IMG/VR virus record: IMGVR_UViG_3300029984_000021
Span: 1-36,842 of that record
Reading direction: 5' to 3' (one strand)
Length of the DNA: 36,842 nt
DNA from: a virus
Both the position numbers and the translations under genes were made by a program. Below the pieces are notes generated by a model, which did no database searches, was not told where the DNA came from, and saw only the letters and a program-made list of their open reading frames with translations. Positions 85 to 30,691 of the stretch are shown here, in pieces (the first letter of the stretch is position 1; each line of letters opens with the position of its first letter).

Positions 85-609
85 TTATTGTTTAGATGCT
101 TGTACAGTTGATACTATTGCATGTCCTACGCCATAATAAGTTCCAACGGATGCTAATACAACGCCCGCTGTTAACTGACCAGACTTCATCATAGCAAGTC
201 CACCTACTTGAGATGCTACTACAATTCCCGCATCTTTTAATAGATTCTGACTTAATGTCTTACCATTTTTTAATGTTTTGGGTGCTACTATATTTTTACT
301 GGCAGCACTTTTATATTTAGATTTTATTTGTGCTTGTTCATTGTCCAAGGCTTTACTTCTTTTGATTACTGCATTTACATCATTACCTTTTCCAGACTTT
401 TGTAGGTCAGCCATGTCTTTCTGAAACTTAGCATTAGACTTTTTAAGTTCATCTCTTTTACTGGCCGAAGGTTTAGATGTGGCTGCTCCACCAGTTCTAT
501 GCCCCCACTTCATGCCTAATTTACCAAAATGTTCGAGTGAATCTTCAGAGTTGGTACCTTTACCCCAAGACATTCCCATTGCACCGTAATGTTTTAATTC
601 ATTATCCAT
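85..609 (-). CDS. Late protein with two N-terminal HxGxxGMxWG tags
   Basis: This 174-residue protein has two tandem copies of a short tag in its first 38 residues: HYGAMGMSWGKG (about 7-18) and HFGKLGMKWGHR (about 27-38). A Lys/Ser-rich, probably helical middle follows, then a hydrophobic C-terminal half (about 118-165) that could be one or two membrane helices. The start is supported by AAAGGAGG about 7 nt upstream. The tag occurs in uncharacterised proteins near terminase and portal genes of Bacillota phages; I know of no established function. The first 36 codons are nearly identical in DNA to those of the gene at 625-1164, so the two arose by recent duplication or gene conversion of the tag segment, while the bodies differ. 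Confidence 0.85.
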   Translation of the reverse strand: MDNELKHYGAMGMSWGKGTNSEDSLEHFGKLGMKWGHRTGGAATSKPSASKRDELKKSNAKFQKDMADLQKSGKGNDVNAVIKRSKALDNEQAQIKSKYKSAASKNIVAPKTLKNGKTLSQNLLKDAGIVVASQVGGLAMMKSGQLTAGVVLASVGTYYGVGHAIVSTVQASKQ

Positions 610-624: not shown

Positions 625-1164
625 TTAACCAAAATTCTTCTTCCATGTCTGAGCAGTTTTATAGGTATTTACTGCTGTTTTTGCCGACTTTAACGCTGAA
701 CTAACAGCGTGGTCGATTGCTGGTTTGTTTTGAGTGTATAGAATATAACCAGCTGCTAATGAGGTTGTTCCCGTTAGGGTCTTAGCTACAATTTTAGCAC
801 TTCTACTTGCCTGGTCTTTAGTTGCTCTACCTCTACTGTTAGATATAGCTTTATTATTTATTTTAGAGTAGTTAATTTCAGATAGGGCTTTATCGTATGC
901 TGCTTTATACTGAGGATTTTTCATTTTTTCATCAATTTCTTTTTTAACTAATCTTCTCTGTATACCAGCACCTTTTCCATATGCTTGACGGGCCACTTCG
1001 TGCTTAGTTGCATCTTTCTTGGCTGTTTTATTTAATTTATTTTCTGCATGTCGTTGTCCCCACTTCATGCCTAACTTACCAAAATGCTCTAGTGAATCTT
1101 CAGAGTTGGTACCTTTACCCCAAGACATTCCCATTGCACCGTAATGTTTTAATTCATTATCCAT
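625..1164 (-). CDS. Late protein with two N-terminal HxGxxGMxWG tags
   Basis: This 179-residue protein starts with the same two-tag segment as the gene at 85-609 (HYGAMGMSWG then HFGKLGMKWG). The body is different: a basic helical region (about 37-115) and a moderately hydrophobic stretch near 125-150 that may cross or touch a membrane. AGGAGG lies about 8 nt upstream of the ATG. It lies just downstream of the large terminase (12 nt apart) in the packaging/head operon. I do not recognise the body. Co-delivery with the virion or scaffold association are possible roles suggested only by the shared tag and location. Confidence 0.85.
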   Translation of the reverse strand: MDNELKHYGAMGMSWGKGTNSEDSLEHFGKLGMKWGQRHAENKLNKTAKKDATKHEVARQAYGKGAGIQRRLVKKEIDEKMKNPQYKAAYDKALSEINYSKINNKAISNSRGRATKDQASRSAKIVAKTLTGTTSLAAGYILYTQNKPAIDHAVSSALKSAKTAVNTYKTAQTWKKNFG

Positions 1165-1175: not shown

Positions 1176-2921
1176 CTATTCGAATGCATCTTTATTAACC
1201 TTATAGGCAATATAAGCATCCATTAATGCCGAAACACTATCAATTTTATTTTCATATCGTTTCTTTAATAGTTTACGATTACCGTTTGTATCTTCTAAAG
1301 TAACACAGTTACCCATTGTGAATGTCATTAATTCTTGATCAAATACTAACATTCGTTCTGCTGCTAGATTCTTAAGTTCACCTAGTGGTACTGACTCAGT
1401 CTTAGAACCTTGGATAACTTTCTCAATTCCATATGGTCCATTCTCTGCTTCCCATCTAGTTACAAATTCTTTAGCATTGTAAGGGTCAAATCCAAAACTT
1501 CGTACGTCATAACCTTCTGAAATTATGAATTCATCTACATCTTCATAGACCTCCATCATGTCTAGTACAGTGCCTTCTAAGACCATCAAACTACCCTCAT
1601 CTAAGAACTGGTTATACTTGCTTCTCATTGCTCCTGGAAGTTTCATAAGCGTTAATGATGTGATATAGCATCTAGTCTTAACTCCGAACTTACCACTTGC
1701 TAATGGAAATAAGAAAGTGAAAGCGCAGAAGTCATCTCCCTGAGACATATCGGCTCCCATAGAGCAGACCATCTTCCAGAAGTTACGTTTTCTATGTGGC
1801 AAGGTTTCTTCGTAAGTGAAGAAGTAGGTATACCCTTCCATTGGAAGACCAAACCTCTTTGCCAGAATGTCATTCCTAGAAGCAGGTGCTTTCTCCGCTC
1901 TCTCAACGTCCAACTGATAGGTTTCGTACGTAACAGTCTTTCCGAGATTAGGATTAGCCTTTTGCCAGGTTGACGGATCAGTAATTTCTTTGACATCATC
2001 GAGTTTGTACCACCAGATGGAAACATGTGGGTTTATGTAGTCTCCTCTAAGTATGTCAGTTAGTTCCATTTTGATTGTATCGCCACTTCCATTCCTCACG
2101 GTACCTTCTGAACTCGTCGCTACGATTAAGTAGTCATCAAGTTTGGATGCACCCTGCTCAATAGCACCAACAACATCCTCTCGAATGTCACCAGAGAGCC
2201 ACTCATCAACAGTTGTTATCTTAGGTCTTAATCCCTGAAGTTTGTCTATGCTCATAGGTCGAACTTCTATTAGTGATCCTGTAAGAAAGTTCTCAACTCC
2301 CTTCTTAGTAGATGCCAACTTAATTCTATTGGCTCTGGAACCGGTTGTGTTCTGTAAGGAACCCTCAGTTAAGAACTTAAAGAGAGGACCTCTTGATCTT
2401 GTAATGGCAGTTCGTATAGGAGACATAACTTCATCTGCCTGTTTCATTGTTGGGGCAGTCGTAATCTGGTGTGTGGTTGTAGTATCAACGTTGTGAAAGT
2501 ACGATTGAATACATGAATCATACAACGACTTCGCAGCACCTCTTCCCACGATCAAATATTGTTTGTTAATCAATCGCTTTTTAATCATCTTACGAACATA
2601 CTTTCCGCCATGATTATCTGGAGATGGTTCGTAGATACTTCGCTCAACAAAGTAGTACCATCCAAATACTGCTTCGGCCCATAACTTAAATGAATCAAGT
2701 AATACCAAATCAGCACCATCAGTAAGAGTAAGTTCATTTTCGCAATAATTAACAAACCCCTCTACCACTCCACTATCATAGTAGACTCCTGGATTAGCTA
2801 TTAGTTCATCTATACGATTCATCTCCATAGAGATTTCTTTACAGACTGGAATATCTCCCCTAATAACTGCCTCACGAAATGCACCATAGTATTTGGGTGT
2901 TGCTGTATTTGATAATGACAT
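1176..2921 (-). CDS. terL: Terminase large subunit
   Basis: This 581-residue protein is the ATP-driven motor and nuclease that packages DNA into the prohead. The N-terminal ATPase shows a Walker A-like GRGAAKS (126-132), Walker B TVDEW (237-241) and the coupling motif ATSSEG (268-273). The C-terminal RNase H-like nuclease has candidate metal ligands D391 (GADMSQGDD), D479 (GFDPYNAKEF) and D561 (NKIDSVSALMDAYIAY). Length and motif order fit the HK97-type terminase family. The start has a modest Shine-Dalgarno (TAGGTGA) that overlaps the stop of the tagged gene upstream. It works with a small subunit (candidate at 4910-5242) and probably the HNH protein at 3692-4102. Confidence 0.97.
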   Translation of the reverse strand: MSLSNTATPKYYGAFREAVIRGDIPVCKEISMEMNRIDELIANPGVYYDSGVVEGFVNYCENELTLTDGADLVLLDSFKLWAEAVFGWYYFVERSIYEPSPDNHGGKYVRKMIKKRLINKQYLIVGRGAAKSLYDSCIQSYFHNVDTTTTHQITTAPTMKQADEVMSPIRTAITRSRGPLFKFLTEGSLQNTTGSRANRIKLASTKKGVENFLTGSLIEVRPMSIDKLQGLRPKITTVDEWLSGDIREDVVGAIEQGASKLDDYLIVATSSEGTVRNGSGDTIKMELTDILRGDYINPHVSIWWYKLDDVKEITDPSTWQKANPNLGKTVTYETYQLDVERAEKAPASRNDILAKRFGLPMEGYTYFFTYEETLPHRKRNFWKMVCSMGADMSQGDDFCAFTFLFPLASGKFGVKTRCYITSLTLMKLPGAMRSKYNQFLDEGSLMVLEGTVLDMMEVYEDVDEFIISEGYDVRSFGFDPYNAKEFVTRWEAENGPYGIEKVIQGSKTESVPLGELKNLAAERMLVFDQELMTFTMGNCVTLEDTNGNRKLLKKRYENKIDSVSALMDAYIAYKVNKDAFE

Positions 2922-2928
2922 AATTCAC

Positions 2929-3306
2929 CTACTTTCCAGGTATGGCTTTATTTAAAAGTATATCTAATCCTTTAGACATGCCCTTAGCAGCTAAATTGGA
3001 CACGACCTGTTTAGAAGAATTAGAAAGAACATCATTCACATACTTTCTACCAGCAGAAACATCCTGTTTGCTTAGATCTTTATATGATCTCTCTAACTGT
3101 AGTCTATTATTAAGAGTTTGTAGTTCAGAATTAGACATCTCATAGATCTTCTTCTTCTTTAATTTCTGTTTCTGAGCATAATCCTCGCTAACCTGTTTTG
3201 GTTTATGTATGCTAGATGTTATACTAGACATACTAGTTTTAGCATTTCTATGACCCCAATGCATTCCTAATTTACCGTAATGCTCTAATGATTCATTATC
3301 TGTCAT
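2929..3306 (-). CDS. Tagged late protein, single HxGxxGMxWG copy
   Basis: This 125-residue protein has one tag (HYGKLGMHWGHR, about 9-20), a basic stretch (QKLKKKKIYEMSNSELQ) and a helical region with the pattern LNNRLQLERSYKDL...SAGRKYVNDVL. I recognise that pattern from other tagged phage proteins. The C-terminal 30 residues are weakly hydrophobic. The ATG overlaps the stop of the connector gene by one base (TAATG), so translation is probably coupled, and GAGGAGG lies just upstream. Function unknown; it sits between the connector and the large terminase. Confidence 0.85.
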   Translation of the reverse strand: MTDNESLEHYGKLGMHWGHRNAKTSMSSITSSIHKPKQVSEDYAQKQKLKKKKIYEMSNSELQTLNNRLQLERSYKDLSKQDVSAGRKYVNDVLSNSSKQVVSNLAAKGMSKGLDILLNKAIPGK

Positions 3307-3691: not shown

Positions 3692-4102
3692 TTACAACCA
3701 AGGACATGTGTCATTACGTCGTCTTTCTATTGGTGCCTGCGGGAGTAATGATGCATCTCCATAATGTATAGCATTATGAGTTTGAAGTATTGTACTAATA
3801 AGGAACTCAGGATCATAGATTACATCCCTATCAAGTTCAACATCTTCTATTGTTATTTGGTTCATGTGATGTACTATTATAGAACTATAAATTTCATGAC
3901 CTTCAACTCCTAAGTCACAACCATTATCTCTAATAATAACATCATCACGAGTCTTTCTCCATCGTTTAGATCTGTATAAGATTTGATTTAGATAACGATC
4001 AAACCCAAATGTAGTATCTCCAACTGAACCTTTGATTCGTAGATAATCATAACGATCTTCGAAACTTATTAAATTTTTTAGTTCAGAATATGACCTAATC
4101 AT
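3692..4102 (-). CDS. Packaging-associated HNH endonuclease
   Basis: This 136-residue protein has an HNH-type nuclease core: VHHMN (77-81), then THNAIHYGD (108-116) giving the second Asn and final His. RDNGCDLG (58-65) precedes it. The layout matches a family common in Bacillota phages beside terminase genes. HNH proteins next to terminases are known to be needed for specific cos cleavage in several phages (work of Kala and colleagues), so a packaging role is likely. The ATG overlaps the upstream stop by 4 bp (ATGA) and has only a weak ribosome site, implying translational coupling. Confidence 0.8.
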   Translation of the reverse strand: MIRSYSELKNLISFEDRYDYLRIKGSVGDTTFGFDRYLNQILYRSKRWRKTRDDVIIRDNGCDLGVEGHEIYSSIIVHHMNQITIEDVELDRDVIYDPEFLISTILQTHNAIHYGDASLLPQAPIERRRNDTCPWL

Positions 4103-4920
4103 AACATTATTACATTTATGATCTTTTCTAAAGCACGTACTTTATGTACTGTAGATGATACAATATCCTCTTTTGGATTTAATAAAATAAGCGGTAATTT
4201 ACCTAAAAACCCGGAATCATTCTCATCAACCACTGCGTTATAGCCAGTAGATCTAACATGGTCAAAGAATTTCGTAACCAGTGGATTATCTTTGTTATTA
4301 AGATCAGTCATAAAGTTTTTATATAACCCATCATCAACTTCTTTTACATTGTGGGTTTTCATATACATCTCAGCCATTATCTTTTTAGATGGAACTTTTA
4401 TTTCATTCTTACTCTTCATAACATGTTCGTATACACTCTTACCTTCGTCTGGTATGAACCCTTGTTTTTTCCATGATTCAAAATATCCAGGCATGGTTTC
4501 TTTGTAAATTCTTGCATCTTTCTTTACGTGGGATACATATATTTTACCATTCGTCGAATAATCTTCAAAAGATTTGGTACTCATCCTATAGAATTTAGAA
4601 CCTTTAGGAATCGTTGTATCTTTTGTTGATAATGAATTTAGATCTACTATTTTTCCAAATCGAAAAGTCTGTACTCCTCCTATTGGTAGATTATTCTTTT
4701 TGTAAGCATATACACCACCAGCAACGGCTAAGGTTACACCAACTGCTGCTGCTCCAATTAGGATGTTCCTTTTAATTCGTTTCTTTCGTTCATCTTCCGT
4801 TTCAGTCTTTTTTGAATTACTTGTTATGGTTGTTGATCCTTTTCGATGCCCACATTTCATTCCCATTACACCGTGATGTGTGAGTTCTTGTAGTGGAGGT
4901 TTCTCTATACTAATCATCAT
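4099..4920 (-). CDS. Tagged membrane protein with conserved C-terminal domain
   Basis: This 273-residue protein carries one tag (HHGVMGMKCGHR; the usual Trp is Cys), then a basic stretch (about 38-48), then a clear transmembrane helix (about 50-71, ILIGAAAVGVTLAVAGGVYAY). A roughly 190-residue soluble domain follows. Its ends, IPKGSKFYRMSTKSFED and GYNAVVDENDSGFLGKLPLI, match a domain I know from other tagged phage proteins. The FYRMS start and the late VVDEND segment are faintly reminiscent of ADP-ribosyltransferase folds, but I cannot identify catalytic residues. The start overlaps the previous gene by 11 bp, with GGGAGG upstream. Confidence 0.8.
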   Translation of the reverse strand: MMISIEKPPLQELTHHGVMGMKCGHRKGSTTITSNSKKTETEDERKKRIKRNILIGAAAVGVTLAVAGGVYAYKKNNLPIGGVQTFRFGKIVDLNSLSTKDTTIPKGSKFYRMSTKSFEDYSTNGKIYVSHVKKDARIYKETMPGYFESWKKQGFIPDEGKSVYEHVMKSKNEIKVPSKKIMAEMYMKTHNVKEVDDGLYKNFMTDLNNKDNPLVTKFFDHVRSTGYNAVVDENDSGFLGKLPLILLNPKEDIVSSTVHKVRALEKIINVIML

Positions 4921-5412: not shown

Positions 5413-5490
5413 AAAATGACCCGCCGGAGCTTTTTTTAGGAGCCAGGCGATTTGAAGGGGGGGTAGGTTTTGCGAGAGACCCCCCTCTAT
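5413..5490. other. GC-rich hairpin region, cos/pac candidate
   Basis: This short non-coding stretch is unlike its AT-rich surroundings. It has a run of seven G (5457-5463) and a run of six C (5480-5485), forming a 7-bp stem (5458-5464 with 5479-5485) around a 14-nt loop. It also holds CGCC/GGCG arms (5422-5425, 5446-5449) and direct repeats of GGAGC. There is no U-tract, so it is not an ordinary terminator. A cos or pac site is expected next to the small terminase gene, and the presence of an HNH packaging nuclease favours cos. This remains inference. Confidence 0.4.
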
Positions 5491-5494
5491 GCTT

Positions 5495-5746
5495 TTACGC
5501 CTCGCTATTTGTATTATGTGTTGCCTTTGTATAAATTCCTAAAATATTTAATTTAATTATTTCATTTATTGCAGACTCAATTGCTAAATGTTGATCCATG
5601 TCACTTAATTCATCACTTGTTCTTACTATTCTTGATAAGTAACTAAGAGAATGATAACCTTTTGATTCATCAAAGGCATACCACTCATCGAACTGAATGA
5701 ATGGGTCAAATGGATTGTCAGTTGTAGTTAGCATTGATTCAATCAT
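5495..5746 (-). CDS. Conserved phage protein (DNPFDPFIQFDEWY family)
   Basis: This 83-residue soluble protein has the pattern DNPFDPFIQFDEWYAFDES followed by SLSYLSRIV and a helical C-terminus (AIESAINEIIKLNILGIY). I recognise the pattern as a widespread but uncharacterised protein lying just upstream of packaging genes in Bacillota phages. AAAGGAG precedes the ATG at good spacing. It follows the RNA polymerase candidate by 15 nt. Function not known. Confidence 0.8.
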   Translation of the reverse strand: MIESMLTTTDNPFDPFIQFDEWYAFDESKGYHSLSYLSRIVRTSDELSDMDQHLAIESAINEIIKLNILGIYTKATHNTNSEA

Positions 5747-5761
5747 AAGATTACTCCTTTC

Positions 5762-8572
5762 TTAGCTTTGCATAATGCTTGATACAGTTGATGTTGATAC
5801 ACCCATCTGATCTGCTATCTCTGCTTGTGTGTGTCCTGACTTAAGAAGTGTTCTAATCTTTGCTTCATTAGCCGCTGTTACAACAGGTTTGTTTCTAGGT
5901 GTTGCTAACTGTCTAACCAAATCAGGATTAGCATTATCTAGTATCTTAACTAAAGTGTTGTTACTAACAGCTCCTGCTTGAATGGCTTCCCACTCCTTTG
6001 TTGTTATGTCAACAGGATGCTTGTCTGCACCCATTCTTACTCTTGCTTCTGCTAAGGCTTGATACTTGTACTTCTTTATCTCACTGGGTTCCATGTCGGG
6101 GTTAGCTGCCTTCTTGAGGGCTAGGTTAACCTCTGCTATCCTATTAGCGTTCCTCTCAAGGGGGGCATTCTTTAGCGCTACATTTAACTTAGAATTAAGA
6201 ACTGATACTTCTTTAGCATAAGTCTTAGATGCCGATGATGACCATGTTGCAGGTGGTGTACTAATATATGATTTACGTGATTCATTAGCCAATGCCTTTA
6301 GTTGATTAGCATGGTTAGCATATATAATTTCCATTGTTGTACCAGATGATAATTCAAATGCATCTTTTGCTTCTGCCATTTTAGTAGACTTAGTTAGTTT
6401 ACTTACTGTAGTTTCTTTGATTGGCAGATTTGGATTGTCAGCTAATGCGGATTTAGCAAGGGCATTGGATACACTAACTCTTTTATTTTTTCCTGTTACT
6501 GGGTCTTTAACCATAACTGTTTTCTTAGTATAAGTTTTTCCAGTGGGGGTATATAATTTGTTACCCGTAGTAGGGTCAATATATATCCTTTTTTCTTTAC
6601 CTGTTTTAGGATTAAGTATTCCATTACCTGCACCTGCTACTCTATCAAGTGGTCTTGAATCTGAGGATGCTTTAGATATAAGAGTTGATGCTCCTCGATT
6701 TGCTCCACCTTGATATGTCTTTTTTAGAGCAGCAATACCGTTATCTATAGCTGATTGTTTATAATTTAAATGATGTTTTTCAGCATCTATTACAACCATG
6801 CTATGTTTAACAGCTCTAATTATTTCATCATTTTTTGCACCTTTGATAGTCATATCTGTAATAAGATTAGAAACATTTCCCATTTCTATACCTTTAGTAC
6901 GAGATGACATTTTAGGAGCAGACTCAGGTAGCTTGTACATTTTAGGATCAAAGTCTTTAAGTCCTTTAAGTGCTGGTTGAGTTTGAACTATTTGTTTTCC
7001 ATTAGGTCCTCTATTTGGAATAACAAGAACTGTATCACCATCAAAGTCTGCACCTGATAATCTTTCAGCAACTTTAGGATGTATGCCAACTGCATCTATT
7101 AATTTACCATGTAAAGTTTTAGCAGTCTTTTGTTGGTTATTTACTGTGAGTTCTGGTATTTCAAATTGTCCGCCATGTGGATATCTTATAAGCGCTACCT
7201 TTTCTCCGTTTCTATAACTTGGAGCATATATTTCATTTTCTTTCAGACTTGGAACCGGAAGAATAACTCTTGATCCTTGTCTTGGTAAAGCAGCTGCTTT
7301 TAGATGTACGGCAGCAGCATCACAATCATCAGAGAAATCAGCGAGAAGTTTCTTTCTAACAGCTGGATTAGTAAGAGACATGATCTCATCATATTCTTTC
7401 TTTTTAGAAGTGAAAGCCAATCCCAATTGCTGTTTTGCAAGATCTGTTGATTGTTTAGATAACATTTGGGAAGATATACTTTTAGACCATTTTTCCCAAT
7501 CGCCTTCTTCATTAACAATGTTTAATGCTGATAATTGTTTTTTACCAGTTTTATCAGTATAGAACTTTTGTCGTATAGTTGCACCAAATGGATTATCCGG
7601 ATCAATTACACCTGTCTTTTCATTTGCCATTGGTTTGAATACTTTGGATGCTGGTGTAGTTTTGGATTTATTTGTATTGTAAATAACATCTATTCCTGGT
7701 GGCATTTTATCTGAATATATAGCCATACCTTTTAAATAATGAGTTCCATCTACAGCTATACGAACTTGGGCATATCTTTTAGTTCCTAATGATAATTCAT
7801 CAACACCCATTCTAAGTTGTATAGCACCATCCATATCTTTTCCACCACTACCATCATCTGCATAGTTTATCTTAATTCTTTTAGAACTAATAGACTTAGG
7901 TGTTTGTATAGAGTGAAATGTTTCTCCACCATCTTCAGAATATTTATCATTGATCAAATGAATTTTATCTTTATTATTCATTATCTCTGGCCATGTTGTT
8001 TCTGGTTTAGCAAGTACCAACATAGTTGTTTTTTTTCCTGTACCTATTTGAGTTATTGGAATCTCATGTGTGACATATCCATCTTCTTCAAGTAAGGATA
8101 TAGCTGTTTTAAATTTAGTTCTCTTAACCCCAATATGTCTTTCGGTACCTACACCAATATCAATGTATCCACCATTTTTATCCAAATCATCTTTAAGCAT
8201 GTTTGCTGTATTACGAATTAGTTTAGCGTTATCCAAGGAACCAGGTTTAAGTAAATCTCTAACGAAGGATTCATTTTTACCACCCAATTCTTTTCCTATA
8301 GCAACATTGGACATGCCAGTTAGTCTTAATTTTTCTGCTCTAGCAGCAAGTGCTACTTTTTCATCAGCATTAGCTATAGATCTTCTTTGTCTAAATTCTG
8401 TGGAGTTCATACCAAAGCCAGTAGCTATATCATTTTCACTCATACCTTGTTTTTTAAGTTCATCTATTTCAGTTAAGAAACTTCTATTTCTTTGGGGATC
8501 AACACCTGAACCCTTGGGGTACCGACCAGAGGTTGCAGTTCCAATATGAGAAAGTTCATCATGCATTATCAT
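5762..8572 (-). CDS. Putative single-chain two-barrel RNA polymerase (YonO/QDE-1-like)
   Basis: This protein has 936 residues from the ATG at 8572, where GGAGG lies 5 nt upstream; a TTG at 8584 is less likely. The key sequence is GADFDGDTVLVIP (about 507-519), the metal-binding DxDGD loop of double-psi beta-barrel RNA polymerases. It is preceded by VALIRYPHGG, at the place of the beta' NRQPTLH segment. It is followed by MGNVSNLI and HSMVVIDAEKHHLN, which resemble the segment after the DFDGD motif in QDE-1-like RNA-dependent polymerases. Helix-turn-helix-like segments occur at about 32-68, 75-112 and 902-936, and a winged-helix-like stretch at 132-188. The N-terminus (HDELSHIG...GRYPKGSG) is faintly like the tag of neighbouring late proteins. 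The start overlaps the upstream nuclease gene by 14 bp. It could be a phage transcriptase, possibly virion-packaged; activity is inferred. Confidence 0.75.
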   Translation of the reverse strand: MIMHDELSHIGTATSGRYPKGSGVDPQRNRSFLTEIDELKKQGMSENDIATGFGMNSTEFRQRRSIANADEKVALAARAEKLRLTGMSNVAIGKELGGKNESFVRDLLKPGSLDNAKLIRNTANMLKDDLDKNGGYIDIGVGTERHIGVKRTKFKTAISLLEEDGYVTHEIPITQIGTGKKTTMLVLAKPETTWPEIMNNKDKIHLINDKYSEDGGETFHSIQTPKSISSKRIKINYADDGSGGKDMDGAIQLRMGVDELSLGTKRYAQVRIAVDGTHYLKGMAIYSDKMPPGIDVIYNTNKSKTTPASKVFKPMANEKTGVIDPDNPFGATIRQKFYTDKTGKKQLSALNIVNEEGDWEKWSKSISSQMLSKQSTDLAKQQLGLAFTSKKKEYDEIMSLTNPAVRKKLLADFSDDCDAAAVHLKAAALPRQGSRVILPVPSLKENEIYAPSYRNGEKVALIRYPHGGQFEIPELTVNNQQKTAKTLHGKLIDAVGIHPKVAERLSGADFDGDTVLVIPNRGPNGKQIVQTQPALKGLKDFDPKMYKLPESAPKMSSRTKGIEMGNVSNLITDMTIKGAKNDEIIRAVKHSMVVIDAEKHHLNYKQSAIDNGIAALKKTYQGGANRGASTLISKASSDSRPLDRVAGAGNGILNPKTGKEKRIYIDPTTGNKLYTPTGKTYTKKTVMVKDPVTGKNKRVSVSNALAKSALADNPNLPIKETTVSKLTKSTKMAEAKDAFELSSGTTMEIIYANHANQLKALANESRKSYISTPPATWSSSASKTYAKEVSVLNSKLNVALKNAPLERNANRIAEVNLALKKAANPDMEPSEIKKYKYQALAEARVRMGADKHPVDITTKEWEAIQAGAVSNNTLVKILDNANPDLVRQLATPRNKPVVTAANEAKIRTLLKSGHTQAEIADQMGVSTSTVSSIMQS

Positions 8573-9128
8573 ATGCTCCTCCAATCTTTAGCTTATTAAT
8601 TTTCTGATCAAATACAATTATTTTATCCATTATACGAAGTATCTCTTCTGTGGACGGAATATGGATTATTACATCATCTGACTGGTATAGTCTCAATTCT
8701 GTATCTATAGCATGTGGATCAATCTTATACTCCAAACAGAATAAAGATGTATACACTTCCAGTTGTCTCATCGATGATGGTGTTACTCCTGTTTTCAAAT
8801 CATGAATCCTTAAGACGTTTTTTCTAAAAGATATAGCATCAGCAGTACCAAAACAATTCTCTGAAAAATATAGAGGTTGCTCGGTTGCCATCTTGTATCC
8901 TATAGCATCATTAACATATAGATTCATGGTTTTTTTAGACTTTGGTAACTTAACACCGAGTCTTATACATTCACATGCAAACTCGTGTAATCGAGTTCCC
9001 TGACTAGTGGCTAAATATTTGGAATAGGATGTAGCAAGTTTCTCTTCATCATAATTTATCCAATGATATTTAGAGGCACTTAGAAATGCGTGTTGGCCCT
9101 CTATGTCGAAATGCGTGTTGAAGTTCAT
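8559..9128 (-). CDS. PD-(D/E)XK (RecB/Cas4-like) exonuclease
   Basis: This 189-residue protein has RecB-family nuclease motifs in order: GTRLHEFA (44-51), GTADAISF with the first acidic ligand (about 93-100), IHDLKTG with the D-x-K pair (about 108-114) and QLEVY (about 122-126). Length fits the stand-alone phage nucleases of this superfamily. AAAGGAGG lies about 10 nt upstream of the ATG. The gene overlaps the upstream nuclease gene by 59 nt. It probably processes DNA ends in recombination or replication. Confidence 0.85.
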   Translation of the reverse strand: MNFNTHFDIEGQHAFLSASKYHWINYDEEKLATSYSKYLATSQGTRLHEFACECIRLGVKLPKSKKTMNLYVNDAIGYKMATEQPLYFSENCFGTADAISFRKNVLRIHDLKTGVTPSSMRQLEVYTSLFCLEYKIDPHAIDTELRLYQSDDVIIHIPSTEEILRIMDKIIVFDQKINKLKIGGAYDNA

Positions 9129-9390
9129 TTAATACTTCCTCCTTTATCTCTGGCCAAATAACACTAGCATAGGACATCTTATCAAGAACTTCTAAATAGT
9201 ATTCTTGATTTGGTTGATATCTTGATTCTGCTTTTTGCTTGCATTCAAGAGCTGCCCAGGTATTATTATACAATATTAACAAATCTGGGAATCCCTGTAT
9301 GTAGTTGGCATCATTTTTTAGAATTATACATCCTTCAAATATAGATTCAAGCTCCTCAATTAGCTTGGCTTGAAACTTACTTTCTAACAT
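9070..9390 (-). CDS. VRR-NUC-like nuclease
   Basis: This 106-residue protein shows the compact nuclease pattern GFPDLLILY...WAALECKQK (about 45-65), giving PD-x(n)-ExK, plus an early E-x-K/Q helix and a QEYYLEVL helix. The whole matches VRR-NUC or Holliday-resolvase-like PD-(D/E)XK nucleases of phages. I chose the ATG at 9390 because GAAGGAGG sits 7 nt upstream; the frame continues upstream without a good ribosome site. A promoter of the TCGCG class lies directly upstream. Confidence 0.85.
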   Translation of the reverse strand: MLESKFQAKLIEELESIFEGCIILKNDANYIQGFPDLLILYNNTWAALECKQKAESRYQPNQEYYLEVLDKMSYASVIWPEIKEEVLNELQHAFRHRGPTRISKCL

Positions 9391-9444
9391 AAGACTGCCT
9401 CCTTCAAAAAACAAAATAATAAGATAGTGATACTCTATCCCTCT

Positions 9445-9471
9445 ATAATAGTATATGTTATTTCCGCGAGG
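9445..9471 (-). promoter_or_regulatory. TCGCG-class promoter, copy 1
   Basis: On the minus strand CCTCGCG is followed after exactly 14 nt (containing ACATA) by TATTAT. It matches the consensus of eleven other sites in the window, with one change in the -10 box. It begins immediately after the SF2 helicase stop codon and would drive the nucleases, the polymerase candidate and possibly packaging genes. Confidence 0.65.
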
Positions 9472-11856: not shown

Positions 11857-14800
11857 TCAAAATGGTAATATTGTTGGTTTAAAATGTGAACCAAGTTTAC
11901 ATAATAAATATTCGTTTTCTTCATACATGTTGTCACACTTTTCACACAGAGTAGCACAATCTTTTCCGCATGGAGTAACTAATCTTGGAGGTGTTGATTC
12001 GCCATATATAAACCATTCGGCATCACCAAACTTTGATATATTTGCTAGAGCATCATCAACTAACTTACGATAGTAATCCTTGTCTATGTCATCTTCTTTT
12101 CCAAGAACAGTAACCATCTCAGACTCTAACCATCTATATCCTTTACTTCCGGTTGCGGCATGATAGTTGCCTTCTTTTTCTCTTAGTAATATACCACCAC
12201 CCTTTCCTGGTTTAATTGGACAGAATGCGCCAACCTTTCCTACAAAGTGATAGTTGTGTTCTTCTCCTAAATCTTCATTCATGTCAAGATATAATGCTGT
12301 GGTAACGGATTTGGTTTCACACATATCCTTGAACAGTATTGGTTCTTTACTGAATAGTGATTTGAAGACATATGGCTGTATAAATTGTGCTCCGGTGGCT
12401 GTCCAATCTTTATCATCTTTAGCCACATATACAGCATCATTTATTAAGCATAACTTTTCATAGGTGGCCTCATGTTCAAACTCATAACCATATTTCATAC
12501 CAAAGTCCATCACAAATTGTATAATTCCAGCAGTAGCATTTGGTATCTTTATAGAATCAGTCTTAATATGTGCCACAGTGAATCCTTTCTCTTGAACTGC
12601 ATGCTTGAGGTCAACCATGAAGAGTGCTCCTCTTTTTGCAACTATGTTGTCTATGTTTCTAGGGTCTCGGAAAGCATTCTCAAATTTAGCAGAGGTCAAA
12701 CCATATACTGAATTAATTACTGTCTTTAATGCATTAGACAGATCTGCTGAGTTATAATTTCCATTAAGGAATTGAGCTAACTTTCCATCCAACATGGTAC
12801 TAGCTTCTTCATATTTGTTATGTTTGATTGCTAGTCTTGCTTTCTTTAGTTCTGAGAACTTTTTGGTATATGGACCAAACATATCTAGAAGTTCTATACT
12901 TGATGGGTGCATGGATGCTACATCTAGGAGTGCTACATGAGTATACATTCCTGGTTCAGAATATACATACCCACCTTCTCCTATCTCTTCATCTCGATAG
13001 GTACTTTTCCCAAATTCAAATTTGTAACCTGGGAACATGTCGCCTAAGTCTGTATAGGTAAATACATCTTGTGGTTTTCTATTAGTACCAAATATGATTC
13101 TAGTAGAATGAGCATTAGTTGTATCATTAACTGTTAACCCACTTAACTCAGCAAGTATCTTCCTAGCAGTCCAGTCTCCTTCTAAGTGGTCAAATGTTAC
13201 TTCTGTAGCATCGACATCGTTTCCACAATAATCTGCTACTAGTGGCCACATTTCTTCTGGTACTGGTTGATCCCAAGGTAACCCTAGTTCTTGATGATGA
13301 ATACCTAATTCAATCTCAAACTTCTTGAGACTTTTCTTATTTGCTGCTGATGCAAAATCATAAACATCTGTATAGGATAAGTTATAAGCTTCCCCAAACA
13401 TACAGGTAGGACTATTGGATATAATCCTTTGACTTAATGTGTATAACTCTTCATTAGTGTATCCTATATATCTAGCATACATAATATGATTGTCATACCT
13501 TCTGCAATTGAACCCAACTAATTTAAAACGTAAAAGTTTTTCTACATCTGCGGATGTTGGGTTTATCATCTTTACCGTTTTCTTTCCCTTTAATTTCCAT
13601 GCTACAACAAATAAGTTTGGAAATACTTCAACGTCAAAGAATACCAATTCTCCTTTAGGATCATAGTCATTTACAGGTACACTAATATCTTCGGATTTTA
13701 GTTTCATCTTACCAAGTAGTTTTATACAGTAGTCTGCCTGATGAGTGCTATTACTAGCGAATGCTAATAGTGCCGGTCTCATATTTGATACATCATAATG
13801 TAATCCTGAATTGTAGGCATCTTCAAGAATCTTAAATATAAAGTCTATGCTTGGTTTGGTCCCATCATGAATATCTTTTGCTAGATTCTTCTTGATTAAA
13901 TCTCTTAATCCTTTTTCGCTTTTTACTGCATCAAAGTTAATCACTTTATTCTCCCCTTTCAACGGCAATCCCGAATTAATAGTTGCTATCGGAATATGGT
14001 TACATTTTGTTAGTCTTCTCCTTAGAGAACTATTACCATTAAACACCTTAATCTCTATGCCCTCTGAGAATATCCTACTAAGTTGGTTTACATCTCCATC
14101 ATAAATATAATGTAGGTGTACGCCTGCTTGGCTTTTGCTGTACTCGGCATATGTAGGTGGCCATTTACCAGCAGCTTCAGTATTTAACTCTAGTGATTTC
14201 TCACCTTTGTCATCTTGTAAATCAAAGTCTACTACAATATGGTTTCCTGGTACTCTAACATAATGTATCTTAGTGGTGTCTAAATCTTTTAACTTTGAAT
14301 GCACTTCAAGCCATTTTTTATTTGGTGTATCATGGTCATTTGCATACTGTGCTAAGCAATCAGCACATTCGCTATCAAATATAGATTCAGTTGAGTCTAA
14401 TACTAATGTGTTAGGAGTGTCATCTTTTAAATTTAAACCTGATTTGAACTTATCAAACAAGAAGTCTGAATAATAATTCCTTGTTAGAACGCCTTTAACT
14501 CGACTAACCCCAGATGTAAATTCTTTAAAATAATTCTTTAATTCATCTCTAAATTTATGTTTAGGAAGTTTGAATTCTATAGATGACTCTTCACAATATT
14601 CTTTATATAAGGCGTATGCTCTAGCTAATGATATTCCGTTCTCATCCATAAAATCGATATAATGTTCTTCTATAAAATTAAAGAACACATCTGTTTGAAA
14701 CATCATATCCAGAGGTAAGTATTTTGAATAATAGTTCTTACCCATTTCTCTATAAACTTCAAGACAGTGAAACGCTATTGCTCCTAATTCGAAATCTATT

Positions 14801-15738
14801 TGAGACATTAAAGCATTATATTTTCTCGATGGTATTCTTTTACCAGATGGCTTAACATCTATAAGTCTTCTGATAATACCAGACTTAGCATCGGTTATCT
14901 TTACTGGTTTGTTTGTAGCCATAAATAAGAAGCAGTTAACCCTAGCTGTATACGAGGGTTTAAACTTCTCATTTATAGTCATATCTTCGTGTGATACGAT
15001 CGAGTTGAGTTTGGTATTATCATCAATTTTCGAGAGGTCACCATCATGCTGTATTGCGACAAGGGGATTTCCTCTGAAGACTTCCATCGCAAATGAGTTG
15101 TTTTGACTTGTAAGTGCTTTTGCTTCAAAAGTTGTATAATACCCTTCAAATAATTTCTGAATGATATTAAGAATTGTTGACTTACCTGCACCAGCTTCTC
15201 CATACAAGACAACAAACTTTTGGATATTCTTTGCATCTCCTGAAATAACGGCTCCAATAGCCCATTCCAGTTTTGCTCTTTCTTCTGGGTCATACAAGGT
15301 TCCAATGAGTTCATCAAAAGCATCATAACTCCCTTCTTCTAATGGATATGGTAATCGCCTACTGACATAGTCTTTCTTTTTTACTTCTGTATTTGCAAAT
15401 GTTAATTGTGTATCTAATTGATGTGCATTATTAGCCATGCGTTTTAAATAATTTCCAAAATTAAGCCATGAGTTTGTAGAGAAATCTTCCATCAATTTTA
15501 ATACTATACGAGAATCTGTTTCTTTTACTCTCTCTTCTTTAATTTTCCTTAGTTCGTTATCTACTAACATTGGGACATCATATTCATCAGTAGACCATAG
15601 ACCAAGTTCTTCGTGCCATATAGCATAGAATGATTTTGCTCTCACCATTAGATCTTTTGATTTGGAAACATTAAAATCTGGCGATATCTCAATCAAATCT
15701 TTCTTTACTGTTCGTTCTTTTATTTTGTAAAAATCCAA
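11857..15738 (-). CDS. SF3 helicase-primase(AEP)-exonuclease-DNA polymerase B fusion
   Basis: This is a 1,293-residue replication protein. Residues about 150-300 form an SF3/D5-type helicase: Walker A GEAGAGKST (180-188), acidic motif HDGD (231-234), motif C FMATNKP (272-278) and arginines 290-291. Residues about 450-600 look like an archaeo-eukaryotic primase domain: VVDFD (502-506), SQAGVHLHYIYDGD (536-549) and IEIKVFNG (561-568). Residues 698-850 are a DEDDy proofreading exonuclease: FFDVEVF (700-706), VGFNCRRYDN (741-750) and YCGND (837-841). Residues about 935-1110 are a family B polymerase: DVASMHPSS (motif A, 939-947), KTVINSVYG (motif B, 1005-1013) and KTDS (motif C, 1059-1062, second Asp kept). 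A C-terminal Cys cluster (1257, 1261, 1265, 1268, 1280) may bind metal. Translation starts at TTG (15736-15738), with AAAGGAGA about 7 nt upstream. Confidence 0.9.
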   Translation of the reverse strand: MDFYKIKERTVKKDLIEISPDFNVSKSKDLMVRAKSFYAIWHEELGLWSTDEYDVPMLVDNELRKIKEERVKETDSRIVLKLMEDFSTNSWLNFGNYLKRMANNAHQLDTQLTFANTEVKKKDYVSRRLPYPLEEGSYDAFDELIGTLYDPEERAKLEWAIGAVISGDAKNIQKFVVLYGEAGAGKSTILNIIQKLFEGYYTTFEAKALTSQNNSFAMEVFRGNPLVAIQHDGDLSKIDDNTKLNSIVSHEDMTINEKFKPSYTARVNCFLFMATNKPVKITDAKSGIIRRLIDVKPSGKRIPSRKYNALMSQIDFELGAIAFHCLEVYREMGKNYYSKYLPLDMMFQTDVFFNFIEEHYIDFMDENGISLARAYALYKEYCEESSIEFKLPKHKFRDELKNYFKEFTSGVSRVKGVLTRNYYSDFLFDKFKSGLNLKDDTPNTLVLDSTESIFDSECADCLAQYANDHDTPNKKWLEVHSKLKDLDTTKIHYVRVPGNHIVVDFDLQDDKGEKSLELNTEAAGKWPPTYAEYSKSQAGVHLHYIYDGDVNQLSRIFSEGIEIKVFNGNSSLRRRLTKCNHIPIATINSGLPLKGENKVINFDAVKSEKGLRDLIKKNLAKDIHDGTKPSIDFIFKILEDAYNSGLHYDVSNMRPALLAFASNSTHQADYCIKLLGKMKLKSEDISVPVNDYDPKGELVFFDVEVFPNLFVVAWKLKGKKTVKMINPTSADVEKLLRFKLVGFNCRRYDNHIMYARYIGYTNEELYTLSQRIISNSPTCMFGEAYNLSYTDVYDFASAANKKSLKKFEIELGIHHQELGLPWDQPVPEEMWPLVADYCGNDVDATEVTFDHLEGDWTARKILAELSGLTVNDTTNAHSTRIIFGTNRKPQDVFTYTDLGDMFPGYKFEFGKSTYRDEEIGEGGYVYSEPGMYTHVALLDVASMHPSSIELLDMFGPYTKKFSELKKARLAIKHNKYEEASTMLDGKLAQFLNGNYNSADLSNALKTVINSVYGLTSAKFENAFRDPRNIDNIVAKRGALFMVDLKHAVQEKGFTVAHIKTDSIKIPNATAGIIQFVMDFGMKYGYEFEHEATYEKLCLINDAVYVAKDDKDWTATGAQFIQPYVFKSLFSKEPILFKDMCETKSVTTALYLDMNEDLGEEHNYHFVGKVGAFCPIKPGKGGGILLREKEGNYHAATGSKGYRWLESEMVTVLGKEDDIDKDYYRKLVDDALANISKFGDAEWFIYGESTPPRLVTPCGKDCATLCEKCDNMYEENEYLLCKLGSHFKPTILPF

Positions 15739-22454: not shown

Positions 22455-22485
22455 AATAAATTCCACCTTTCAAGTTTAATCTTTC

Positions 22486-22510
22486 ATTATACTATGTGTT
22501 TTTTTCGCGA
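22486..22510 (-). promoter_or_regulatory. TCGCG-class promoter, copy 2
   Basis: TCGCG, then 14 nt containing ACACA, then a perfect TATAAT on the minus strand. It starts 1 nt after the stop of the 47-residue gene and would drive 22197-22454 and genes beyond. Confidence 0.75.
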
Positions 22511-26733: not shown

Positions 26734-26767
26734 GTTTATCCATCCTTTCATATTTAAGTTTTCTTTC

Positions 26768-26793
26768 ATTATACACTGTGTTTTTTTCGCGAG
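26768..26793 (-). promoter_or_regulatory. TCGCG-class promoter, copy 3
   Basis: CTCGCG, 14 nt including ACACA, then TATAAT on the minus strand. It abuts the stop codon of 26794-27072 and faces 26536-26733. Confidence 0.75.
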
Positions 26794-28598: not shown

Positions 28599-28602
28599 TT
28601 TC

Positions 28603-28630
28603 ATTATAACCTGTGTTTTTTTCGCGAGGC
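28603..28630 (-). promoter_or_regulatory. TCGCG-class promoter, copy 4
   Basis: GCCTCGCG, 14 nt with ACACA, TATAAT. It is positioned so transcription starts at the base of small RNA 1. Confidence 0.8.
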
Positions 28631-28687: not shown

Positions 28688-28690
28688 TTC

Positions 28691-28718
28691 ATTATATAGT
28701 GTGTAAACCCCGCGAGGC
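28691..28718 (-). promoter_or_regulatory. TCGCG-class promoter, copy 5
   Basis: GCCTCGCG, 14 nt with ACACA, TATAAT on the minus strand; drives small RNA 2. Confidence 0.8.
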
Positions 28719-28804
28719 AAAAATAAGAAGATGTGTCAGATTCGAACTGACGACCTCTGAGTAACTCTATCAGCGCTCTTACCTTACTGAGCTAACCATC
28801 TCCT
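28719..28804 (-). ncRNA. tRNA-like small RNA 3 (degenerate tRNA)
   Basis: This has a D-arm (GCTC-AGTAAGGTAA-GAGC), a perfect T-arm (GTCAG-TTCGAAT-CTGAC at 28751-28735) and a 7-bp acceptor stem with one G:U (28803-28797 with 28733-28727). The region between acceptor and D-arm is four nt instead of two. The anticodon arm (CTGAT-AGAGTTA-CTCAG) lacks U33 and has a mismatch, so no anticodon can be read. The tail is CTTATTTTTG and no CCA is encoded. It is therefore a tRNA-like molecule or a decayed tRNA. The -10 box is about 5 nt from its 5' end. Confidence 0.7.
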
Positions 28805-28807
28805 TCT

Positions 28808-28834
28808 ATTATAGGCTGTGTAATCCTTGCGAGC
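28808..28834 (-). promoter_or_regulatory. TCGCG-class promoter, copy 6
   Basis: CTCGCA, 14 nt with ACACA, TATAAT. It overlaps the stop codon of 28834-29181 by one base and places the start point at the 5' end of the tRNA-like RNA. Confidence 0.75.
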
Positions 28835-29391: not shown

Positions 29392-29419
29392 TATAATATC
29401 CCCCTTTATATTTACTTTC

Positions 29420-29447
29420 ATTATACACTATGTTTTTTATGCGAGGC
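29420..29447 (-). promoter_or_regulatory. TCGCG-class promoter, copy 7
   Basis: GCCTCGCA, 14 nt with ACATA, TATAAT on the minus strand. Confidence 0.75.
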
Positions 29448-29672: not shown

Positions 29673-29704
29673 GATTAAATCCCCCTAAAATTTATTTTGG
29701 TTTC

Positions 29705-29732
29705 ATTATAAACTGTGTTATTCCCGCGAGGC
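29705..29732 (-). promoter_or_regulatory. TCGCG-class promoter, copy 8
   Basis: GCCTCGCG, 14 nt with ACACA, TATAAT on the minus strand. Confidence 0.8.
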
Positions 29733-29972: not shown

Positions 29973-30000
29973 TTTATAATCCCCTTTCAAGTTTACTTTC

Positions 30001-30028
30001 ATTATACAATAAGTTATTTCTGCGAGGC
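30001..30028 (-). promoter_or_regulatory. TCGCG-class promoter, copy 9
   Basis: GCCTCGCA, 14 nt with the variant ACTTA, TATAAT on the minus strand. Confidence 0.7.
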
Positions 30029-30162: not shown

Positions 30163-30195
30163 GATAAAATCCCCCTTAAAATAAATTTTACTTCT

Positions 30196-30219
30196 ATTAT
30201 AGTATGTGTTAATTGTGCG
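30196..30219 (-). promoter_or_regulatory. TCGCG-class promoter, copy 10
   Basis: TTCGCA, 14 nt with ACACA, TATAAT. It lacks the GCC prefix seen in most copies. It drives 30040-30162. Confidence 0.7.
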
Positions 30220-30290
30220 AAAAACAAAAAAATAAGCTTGGGATTCGAACCCAAGTAAAGTCCCCCTCTTTCGAGTTACGACACTTTTCT
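30220..30290 (-). ncRNA. tRNA-like small RNA 4 (T-arm mimic)
   Basis: This carries a canonical tRNA T-arm, CTTGGG-TTCGAAT-CCCAAG (30255-30237), next to a 5-bp stem AAAGT/ACTTT (30287-30283 with 30261-30257) that holds CTC-GAAA-GAG. There is no anticodon arm and the whole is only about 60 nt. A U-tract follows. It is immediately downstream of the promoter at 30294-30321. Confidence 0.6.
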
Positions 30291-30293
30291 TTC

Positions 30294-30321
30294 ATTATAG
30301 TATGTGTTTTTTTCGCGAGGC
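30294..30321 (-). promoter_or_regulatory. TCGCG-class promoter, copy 11
   Basis: GCCTCGCG, 14 nt with ACACA, TATAAT on the minus strand; drives small RNA 4. Confidence 0.8.
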
Positions 30322-30631: not shown

Positions 30632-30666
30632 TTCCTTCTCCCCTTTCAAGAGTTTTTAATTCCTTC

Positions 30667-30691
30667 ATTATAACCTGTGTTTTATCCGCGA
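30667..30691 (-). promoter_or_regulatory. TCGCG-class promoter, copy 12
   Basis: ATCGCG, 14 nt with ACACA, TATAAT on the minus strand. It directly follows the stop codon of 30692-30907. Confidence 0.75.

Follow-up and report, generated by a model that had tools for sequence, protein, structure and literature searches.

A predicted single-chain two-barrel RNA polymerase of siphophages and the early promoter-like motif that accompanies it

Single-chain two-barrel RNA polymerases are carried in the virions of crAss-like phages, as gp66, and to our knowledge injected two-barrel polymerases have been described only for jumbo phages, crAss-like phages, and one Thermus phage. Phage P23-45 encodes two such enzymes, gp64 (nvRNAP) and gp96 (vRNAP), which use phage-specific promoters for the pre-early and early genes (PMC10770324), while YonO of SPbeta strictly prefers DNA templates and is needed for that phage's late genes (PMC5467207). 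Here we analyzed the IMG/VR virus record IMGVR_UViG_3300029984_000021 (36,842 bases, the whole of which we call the window), which encodes a candidate enzyme of this kind.

Like YonO, the window polymerase is a single chain within a range of about 840-940 aa, belongs to the two-barrel class, and has a catalytic triad that can be aligned. However, YonO has DNDGD where the window polymerase has DFDGD, the invariant C-terminal Cys pairs of YonO (C799, C802, C816, and C819) are missing from the window polymerase, which ends in a helix-turn-helix (HTH) instead, and the TCGCR motif described below occurs in none of 47 YonO-phage records. On the tests made, its sequence suggests that it is not a YonO member. 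With P23-45 gp64 and gp96 it shares, by prediction, a phage single-chain two-barrel fold, although sequence alignment to gp64 is limited to the catalytic barrel; it is a stand-alone 936-aa ORF rather than a P23-45-type tape-measure fusion, and its HTH and winged-helix modules are extra relative to gp64 and gp96. Its predicted fold is also like that of QDE-1 and RDR2 over both barrels, at 11-14% identity, although these are eukaryotic RNA-dependent RNA polymerases (RdRps) from another biological setting. As with the virion RNA polymerases of N4, crAss-like phages (gp66, compared here by description), and P23-45 (gp96), it appears, judged by sequence, to be paired with a phage-specific early promoter.

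The polymerase gene and its predicted fold

The polymerase ORF runs on the minus strand from an ATG at 8572, with a GGAGGAG ribosome site upstream, to a stop codon ending at 5762 (Table 1). In an HMM profile search, the family phrog_4291, annotated as "RNA-dependent RNA polymerase," matched residues 3-935, its full length, with 1180 bits. By tblastn, homologs with less than 60% identity, almost all of them full length, are found in about 250 phage records, including Lactococcus phages 1706 and P162 and phages of Arthrobacter, Gordonia, Streptomyces, and Faecalibacterium. Homologs are also present in many IMG/VR contigs and in gut bacterial genomes, where they are probably prophage copies. The orthologs in Lactococcus phage 1706 (orf75), RosaAsantewaa (gp54), Cheesy (gp100), and FP_oengus (gp55) are all full length, and the orthologs of this family mostly lie behind an exonuclease gene and close to the right end of the genome. 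The labels that they bear in those records are RdRp, HTH protein, structural protein, or hypothetical protein, with no link to a promoter; likewise, the searchable literature, beyond whose reach lie key subscription papers, yielded no description of the family as promoter-specific or virion polymerases.

The initial annotation had recognized a two-barrel polymerase candidate from three segments, all of which are present in the order that it gave: RYPHGG (residues 463-468), GADFDGDTVLVIP (507-519), and HSMVVIDAEK (590-599). Given the full-length phrog_4291 match, the 250 phage records, and the invariant residues in 60 homologs, these segments are not there by chance. D509, D511, and D513 are identical in 60/60 aligned homologs, and K281, K302, K313, K373, R463, H466, H590, and K599 are invariant in the same 60, although part of this set was retrieved with the patterns GADFDGD and SGRYP[WKY]GS, so that, in precisely those stretches, the invariance is partly a product of selection. 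A separate 18 homologs, retrieved with other patterns, displayed the same invariance.

We compared an AF2 model of the polymerase (mean pLDDT 82.5) with solved structures. The best solved matches in Foldseek were to QDE-1 (E 1e-8), and VIA-align aligned the predicted model to RDR2 (Z 14.7) and QDE-1 (Z 14.5) over residues 223-774 and to the P23-45-type single-chain polymerase gp64 (8f72; Z 12.5). The comparison with QDE-1 that had been proposed as a check thus matched the two-barrel core; this match refers to residues 223-774 of the predicted model as a whole, and the boundaries of the first barrel derive from its strands and the matched range. An influenza-titled VIA-align row (Z 11.5) was set aside, as its chain length and range point to a subunit of Pol II in that complex. 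At the profile level, an alignment to P23-45 gp64 spans the catalytic barrel (E 0.0014) and pairs the loop with GADYDGD and the preceding strand. The hhalign alignment to YonO is weak (E 0.0018, probability 15%) and covers the catalytic barrel only, with the triad aligned; it was the YonO multiple alignment that recovered this barrel, and a single-sequence hhalign to YonO did not. Pfam and NCBIfam searches of the polymerase returned weak HTH matches and no barrel domain, and PDB sequence searches returned chance HTH and designed-helical matches only. Conservation, the predicted fold, and the profile alignments to P23-45 gp64 and YonO support a single-chain two-barrel polymerase with DNA-binding modules, and we assign the protein to the two-barrel RNA polymerase class with high confidence, its activity being predicted.

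The three HTH-like segments and the winged-helix-like stretch reported earlier could all be placed, at residues 32-64, 89-108, and 902-935 and at residues 114-190, respectively. The predicted resemblance of residues 114-190 to the TFIIIC extended winged helix (Z 8.6) is only suggestive, and a Foldseek search with the N-terminal region gave winged-helix resemblances and no significant match.

Table 1. Features of the polymerase locus and of the rest of the window, with coordinates in the window
Feature	Position	Strand	Evidence
DUF7211 tagged protein, double tag	85-609	-	Pfam, motif comparison
DUF7211 tagged protein, double tag	625-1164	-	Pfam, motif comparison
TerL	1176-2921		profile match
DUF7211-like tagged protein	2929-3306	-	Pfam, motif comparison
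Head-module protein, DUF7211-like LTHHGVMGMKCGHR N-terminus	4099-4920	-	Pfam, motif comparison
cos junction (genome ends), ...ATCGCCTGGCT / CCTAAAAAAAG on - strand	5440-5441		end comparison
phrog_4303 small protein, directly downstream of polymerase	5495-5746	-	profile match
Single-chain two-barrel RNA polymerase (predicted), 936 aa, phrog_4291	5762-8572	-	ORF, profile match, predicted fold
C-terminal HTH, residues 902-935	5768-5869	-	sub-threshold Pfam HTH matches
HSMVVIDAEK, residues 590-599	6776-6805	-	homolog alignment
Second double-psi barrel (beta-prime-like) with RYPHGG, residues about 424-530	6983-7303	-	AF2, VIA-align, profile alignments
DFDGD catalytic loop, residues 509-513	7034-7048	-	homolog alignment, profile alignment
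Proposed first double-psi barrel (beta-like), residues about 233-313, invariant K281, K302, K313	7634-7876	-	AF2, VIA-align
Extended winged-helix-like domain, residues 114-190	8003-8233	-	VIA-align Z 8.6 to T138 eWH
Second HTH-like segment, residues 89-108	8249-8308	-	AF2 helices
First HTH-like segment, residues 32-64 (32-52/57-64)	8381-8479	-	AF2 helices, HTH matches
SGRYPxGSG motif region, residues 7-23, LSHIGTATSGRYPKGSG; invariant, disordered, proposed virion-targeting signal	8504-8554	-	alignment, AF2
RecB-like exonuclease, phrog_3953, polymerase operon	8559-9128	-	profile match
Putative VRR-Nuc-type nuclease	9070-9414	-	synteny with RosaAsantewaa gp52
Promoter-like site before VRR-Nuc / RecB-like exonuclease / polymerase operon	9444-9469	-	motif scan
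Early promoter-like site	22485-22510	-	motif scan
Early promoter-like site	26767-26792	-	motif scan
Early promoter-like site	28602-28627	-	motif scan
Early promoter-like site, directly after tRNA-Thr	28690-28715	-	motif scan
Early promoter-like site, directly before tRNA-Thr	28807-28832	-	motif scan
Early promoter-like site	29419-29444	-	motif scan
Early promoter-like site	29704-29729	-	motif scan
Early promoter-like site	30000-30025	-	motif scan
Early promoter-like site	30195-30220	-	motif scan
Early promoter-like site	30293-30318	-	motif scan
Early promoter-like site	30666-30691	-	motif scan

The TCGCR motif and its co-occurrence with the polymerase

The TCGCG element proves to be a promoter-like motif of 26-31 bp, TCGCR-N6-ACAY-N4-TATAATG-RA, which takes the form CTCGCG-N6-ACACA-N3-TATAATGAAAG in the window. 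With up to three mismatches allowed, the whole window contains 12 copies against 0.07 expected, all on the coding strand. As the initial annotation had observed, the late genes lack such promoters: 11/12 copies lie in the early region (22.5-30.7 kb), and the remaining one lies at 9.4 kb before the polymerase operon. Nine copies are followed, within about 16-53 bases, by a plausible ribosome site and start codon, another copy is 105 bases before a gene, and the last two closely flank the gene for tRNA-Thr (AGT; 28726-28803). Conventional -35/-10 promoters, when searched for, were no more frequent than in shuffles. The copy before the polymerase operon is conserved in the window, Cheesy, RosaAsantewaa, Crocheter, FP_oengus, and the records G001 and G009. 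Between 29400 and 30400, intrinsic terminators stand directly before the motif copies at 30318, 30220, 29729, and 29444.

Other phages whose polymerase shares 43-57% protein identity also contain the motif. With at most one mismatch, it was found in 37/50 polymerase-bearing records, always on the same strand as the polymerase gene (37/37), while a reversed control pattern had no match in the 50 and the motif itself was found in 0/50 control records (47 YonO-phage records and 3 reversed-pattern matches). In the opposite direction, phrog_4291 was present in 45 of 78 IMG/VR contigs searched after being picked by the exact motif, or in 44/77 by motif alone, as phage Cheesy was a record added to the 78 that had not been picked by motif. 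Among motif-picked contigs of at least 40 kb, the proportion was 31/32; the one remaining contig, which does contain the helicase-polymerase of the lineage, stops 11.5 kb beyond that gene and may therefore just be truncated. The same IMG/VR collection held 3 stretches matching the reversed pattern versus at least 120 matching the motif. In several host genomes, motif matches were concentrated on a prophage contig, and in some there were few or none.

Co-occurrence in both directions bears on the earlier suggestion that the enzyme transcribes the late genes because they lack TCGCG promoters. That reasoning is unsupported, since an element that accompanies the polymerase both ways would most simply be the polymerase's own early promoter. 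The co-occurrence could nevertheless reflect shared descent, because the helicase-polymerase gene tracks almost as closely: it and the RNA polymerase accompany each other nearly one to one, each being present in about 250 phage records, and for that reason the natural experiment offered by phages with the helicase-polymerase and lacking the RNA polymerase was uninformative. Common ancestry by itself does not tell what reads the motif. In the window, the helicase-polymerase (11857-15738; phrog_4210) is a protein of 1293 aa in which an SF3 helicase/primase-type part is fused to a DNA polymerase.

The form of the motif varies by lineage, being TTTTATGTTTTACATACCCTATAATG in P162, nCACATGTTTTACATACACTATAGTA in 1706, TCGCAAGATNTACANGGCCTTAAATG in RosaAsantewaa, and ACGCGAAAAATNCAGNNTCCTTTATGGA in FP_oengus, and the bases downstream of the TATAATG position are conserved as well. 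The core of the sigma -10 element is TAnnnT. A perfect TATAAT is kept in most lineages, yet TAnnnT is present in 0/14 sites of FP_oengus, 1/11 of G007, and 2/7 of RosaAsantewaa; the FP_oengus and G007 sets came from iterative scanning from weak seeds, and their scan matches were all on one strand (15/0 and 17/0, respectively). G011 had one convincing site in the 60 kb scanned, in which no further motif variant was recovered. Given this variation and the loss of TATAAT in FP_oengus, it is unlikely that a host sigma factor reads all of these forms. By analogy, the drift resembles that of phage polymerases and promoters evolving together, and we consider it likely that this polymerase reads the TCGCR motif.

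The N-terminal motif and the genome ends

The initial annotation had offered injection with the DNA as an alternative to late-gene transcription. It is the better supported of the two, through a label in phage 1706 and the polymerase's N-terminal motif, and it is on these that we infer packaging and injection. The 1706 ortholog, orf75, is labeled "structural protein" in GenBank record EU081845, as is orf7, the one further protein of 1706 in which we found an LxHxG N-terminus (a DUF7211-type tag); the early-region proteins orf62 and orf71 bear the same label, so carry-over from the lysate is possible. Residues 1-29 of the window polymerase are predicted to be disordered, yet few stretches of the protein are as conserved as residues 14-23. 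Four head-module proteins match DUF7211 (PF23847), two of them above the cutoff, while the polymerase has no match to PF23847 and shares the LxH[YI]G part alone. The structural label of the 1706 ortholog and an invariant, disordered N-terminal motif resembling the head-module tag tip the balance toward a polymerase that is packaged in the virion. The two neighboring tagged proteins at 85-609 and 625-1164 have a common N-terminal stretch of about 36 residues, with two DUF7211-type tags each.

The polymerase does adjoin the packaging genes, as noted earlier, with a 1706-type cos at 5440/5441 and TerL at 1176-2921. The junction matches the genome ends of 1706, RosaAsantewaa, and Cheesy, and 3-prime cohesive ends are known from the 1706-group and Arthrobacter AU phages (PMC4110766; PMC5513430). 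Because the cos junction lies inside the contig, the record is a permuted form of the genome, in which only one gene separates the polymerase gene from the right end; a conserved G-rich hairpin is found directly before that end. No conserved late promoter was found, and direct use of late-gene promoters by the polymerase is not supported. Only one weak minus-strand terminator-like site is present in the 1-12 kb region, and it is possible that the late genes are reached by read-through from 9444-9469 across the joined ends.

Proposed role and alternative explanations

We lean toward the explanation that this protein is the phage's own early, DNA-dependent, single-chain two-barrel polymerase, reading the motif and partly packaged in the virion. 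The DFDGD loop of the second barrel would hold the catalytic metal, and the N-terminal HTH pair, the winged helix, and the C-terminal HTH would recognize the promoter without a host sigma factor. That promoter would be the TCGCR-N6-ACAY-N4-TATAATG-RA motif, placed before the small early genes and the polymerase's own operon. Some copies of the polymerase would enter the virion, probably through the N-terminal SGRYPxGSG motif, and a packaged polymerase would then enter the cell with the DNA and start early transcription.

An RNA-dependent RNA polymerase, as the family is annotated, would agree with QDE-1 and RDR2 being the closest solved folds, but we give this reading hardly any credence in a double-stranded DNA phage, given that YonO, a polymerase from this fold class, has a strict preference for DNA templates (PMC5467207) and that DNA-template QDE-1 structures are also among the fold matches. 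The sigma-like TATAAT in most motif copies could instead mean that host RNA polymerase reads the early promoter. In one version of this idea, the phage polymerase is not a virion protein; it is expressed after infection from that promoter and then transcribes the late genes from a promoter of its own, for which YonO sets a precedent (PMC5467207) and with which the position of the gene just before cos and the late genes would fit. We regard this as unlikely, since motif and polymerase co-occur both ways, TATAAT is lost in FP_oengus, RosaAsantewaa, and G007, the search for a conserved late promoter was negative, and the 1706 ortholog is annotated as structural.

In another version, which we find improbable, host RNA polymerase reads the motif with a different phage activator, for which TCGCR and ACAY could be the site, and the two-barrel protein has some other role. 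TATAAT in most lineages would suit it, but one motif is shared by phages of Firmicutes and of high-GC Actinobacteria, the -11A is missing from all FP_oengus sites (0/14) and from most RosaAsantewaa sites (2/7), and no other shared regulator was noticed in passing. A further proposal extends the explanation that we favor: the polymerase may transcribe early and late genes alike, reaching the latter by read-through from 9444-9469 across the joined cos. We hold this extension only tentatively; conservation of that promoter copy across seven lineages or records, including the window, and the single weak minus-strand terminator-like site in 1-12 kb speak for it, while the conserved G-rich hairpin before cos could stop transcription.

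An early, motif-reading, partly packaged polymerase in the window may stand for a class of two-barrel polymerases that is widespread in siphophages of about 40-60 kb infecting Firmicutes and Actinobacteria and whose members are packaged in the virion, specific for a promoter, and independent of sigma. In such a class the HTH promoter readers would be part of the enzyme, the 26-31 bp early promoter would co-evolve with it, and its N-terminal virion-targeting motif would be related to the head tags; we see the chances of this as evenly balanced. If it is true, an injected-polymerase strategy, with a predicted promoter for each lineage, would be common to about 250 sequenced phages whose hosts (Lactococcus, Arthrobacter, Gordonia, and Streptomyces) are easily grown. 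Such phages would also offer for study a small single-chain enzyme that is related to cellular RNA polymerase and whose promoter is known, and they might supply polymerase-promoter pairs that are orthogonal to one another.

Two minor observations concern the polymerase operon. The small phrog_4303 protein encoded after the polymerase has its counterpart in 1706 orf76, and the other phages that we viewed likewise have a small gene after the polymerase. In addition, the motif copy at 9444-9469 and its counterparts tend to ACAT...TATAATA rather than ACAC...TATAATG, a form that perhaps represents a distinct strength class.
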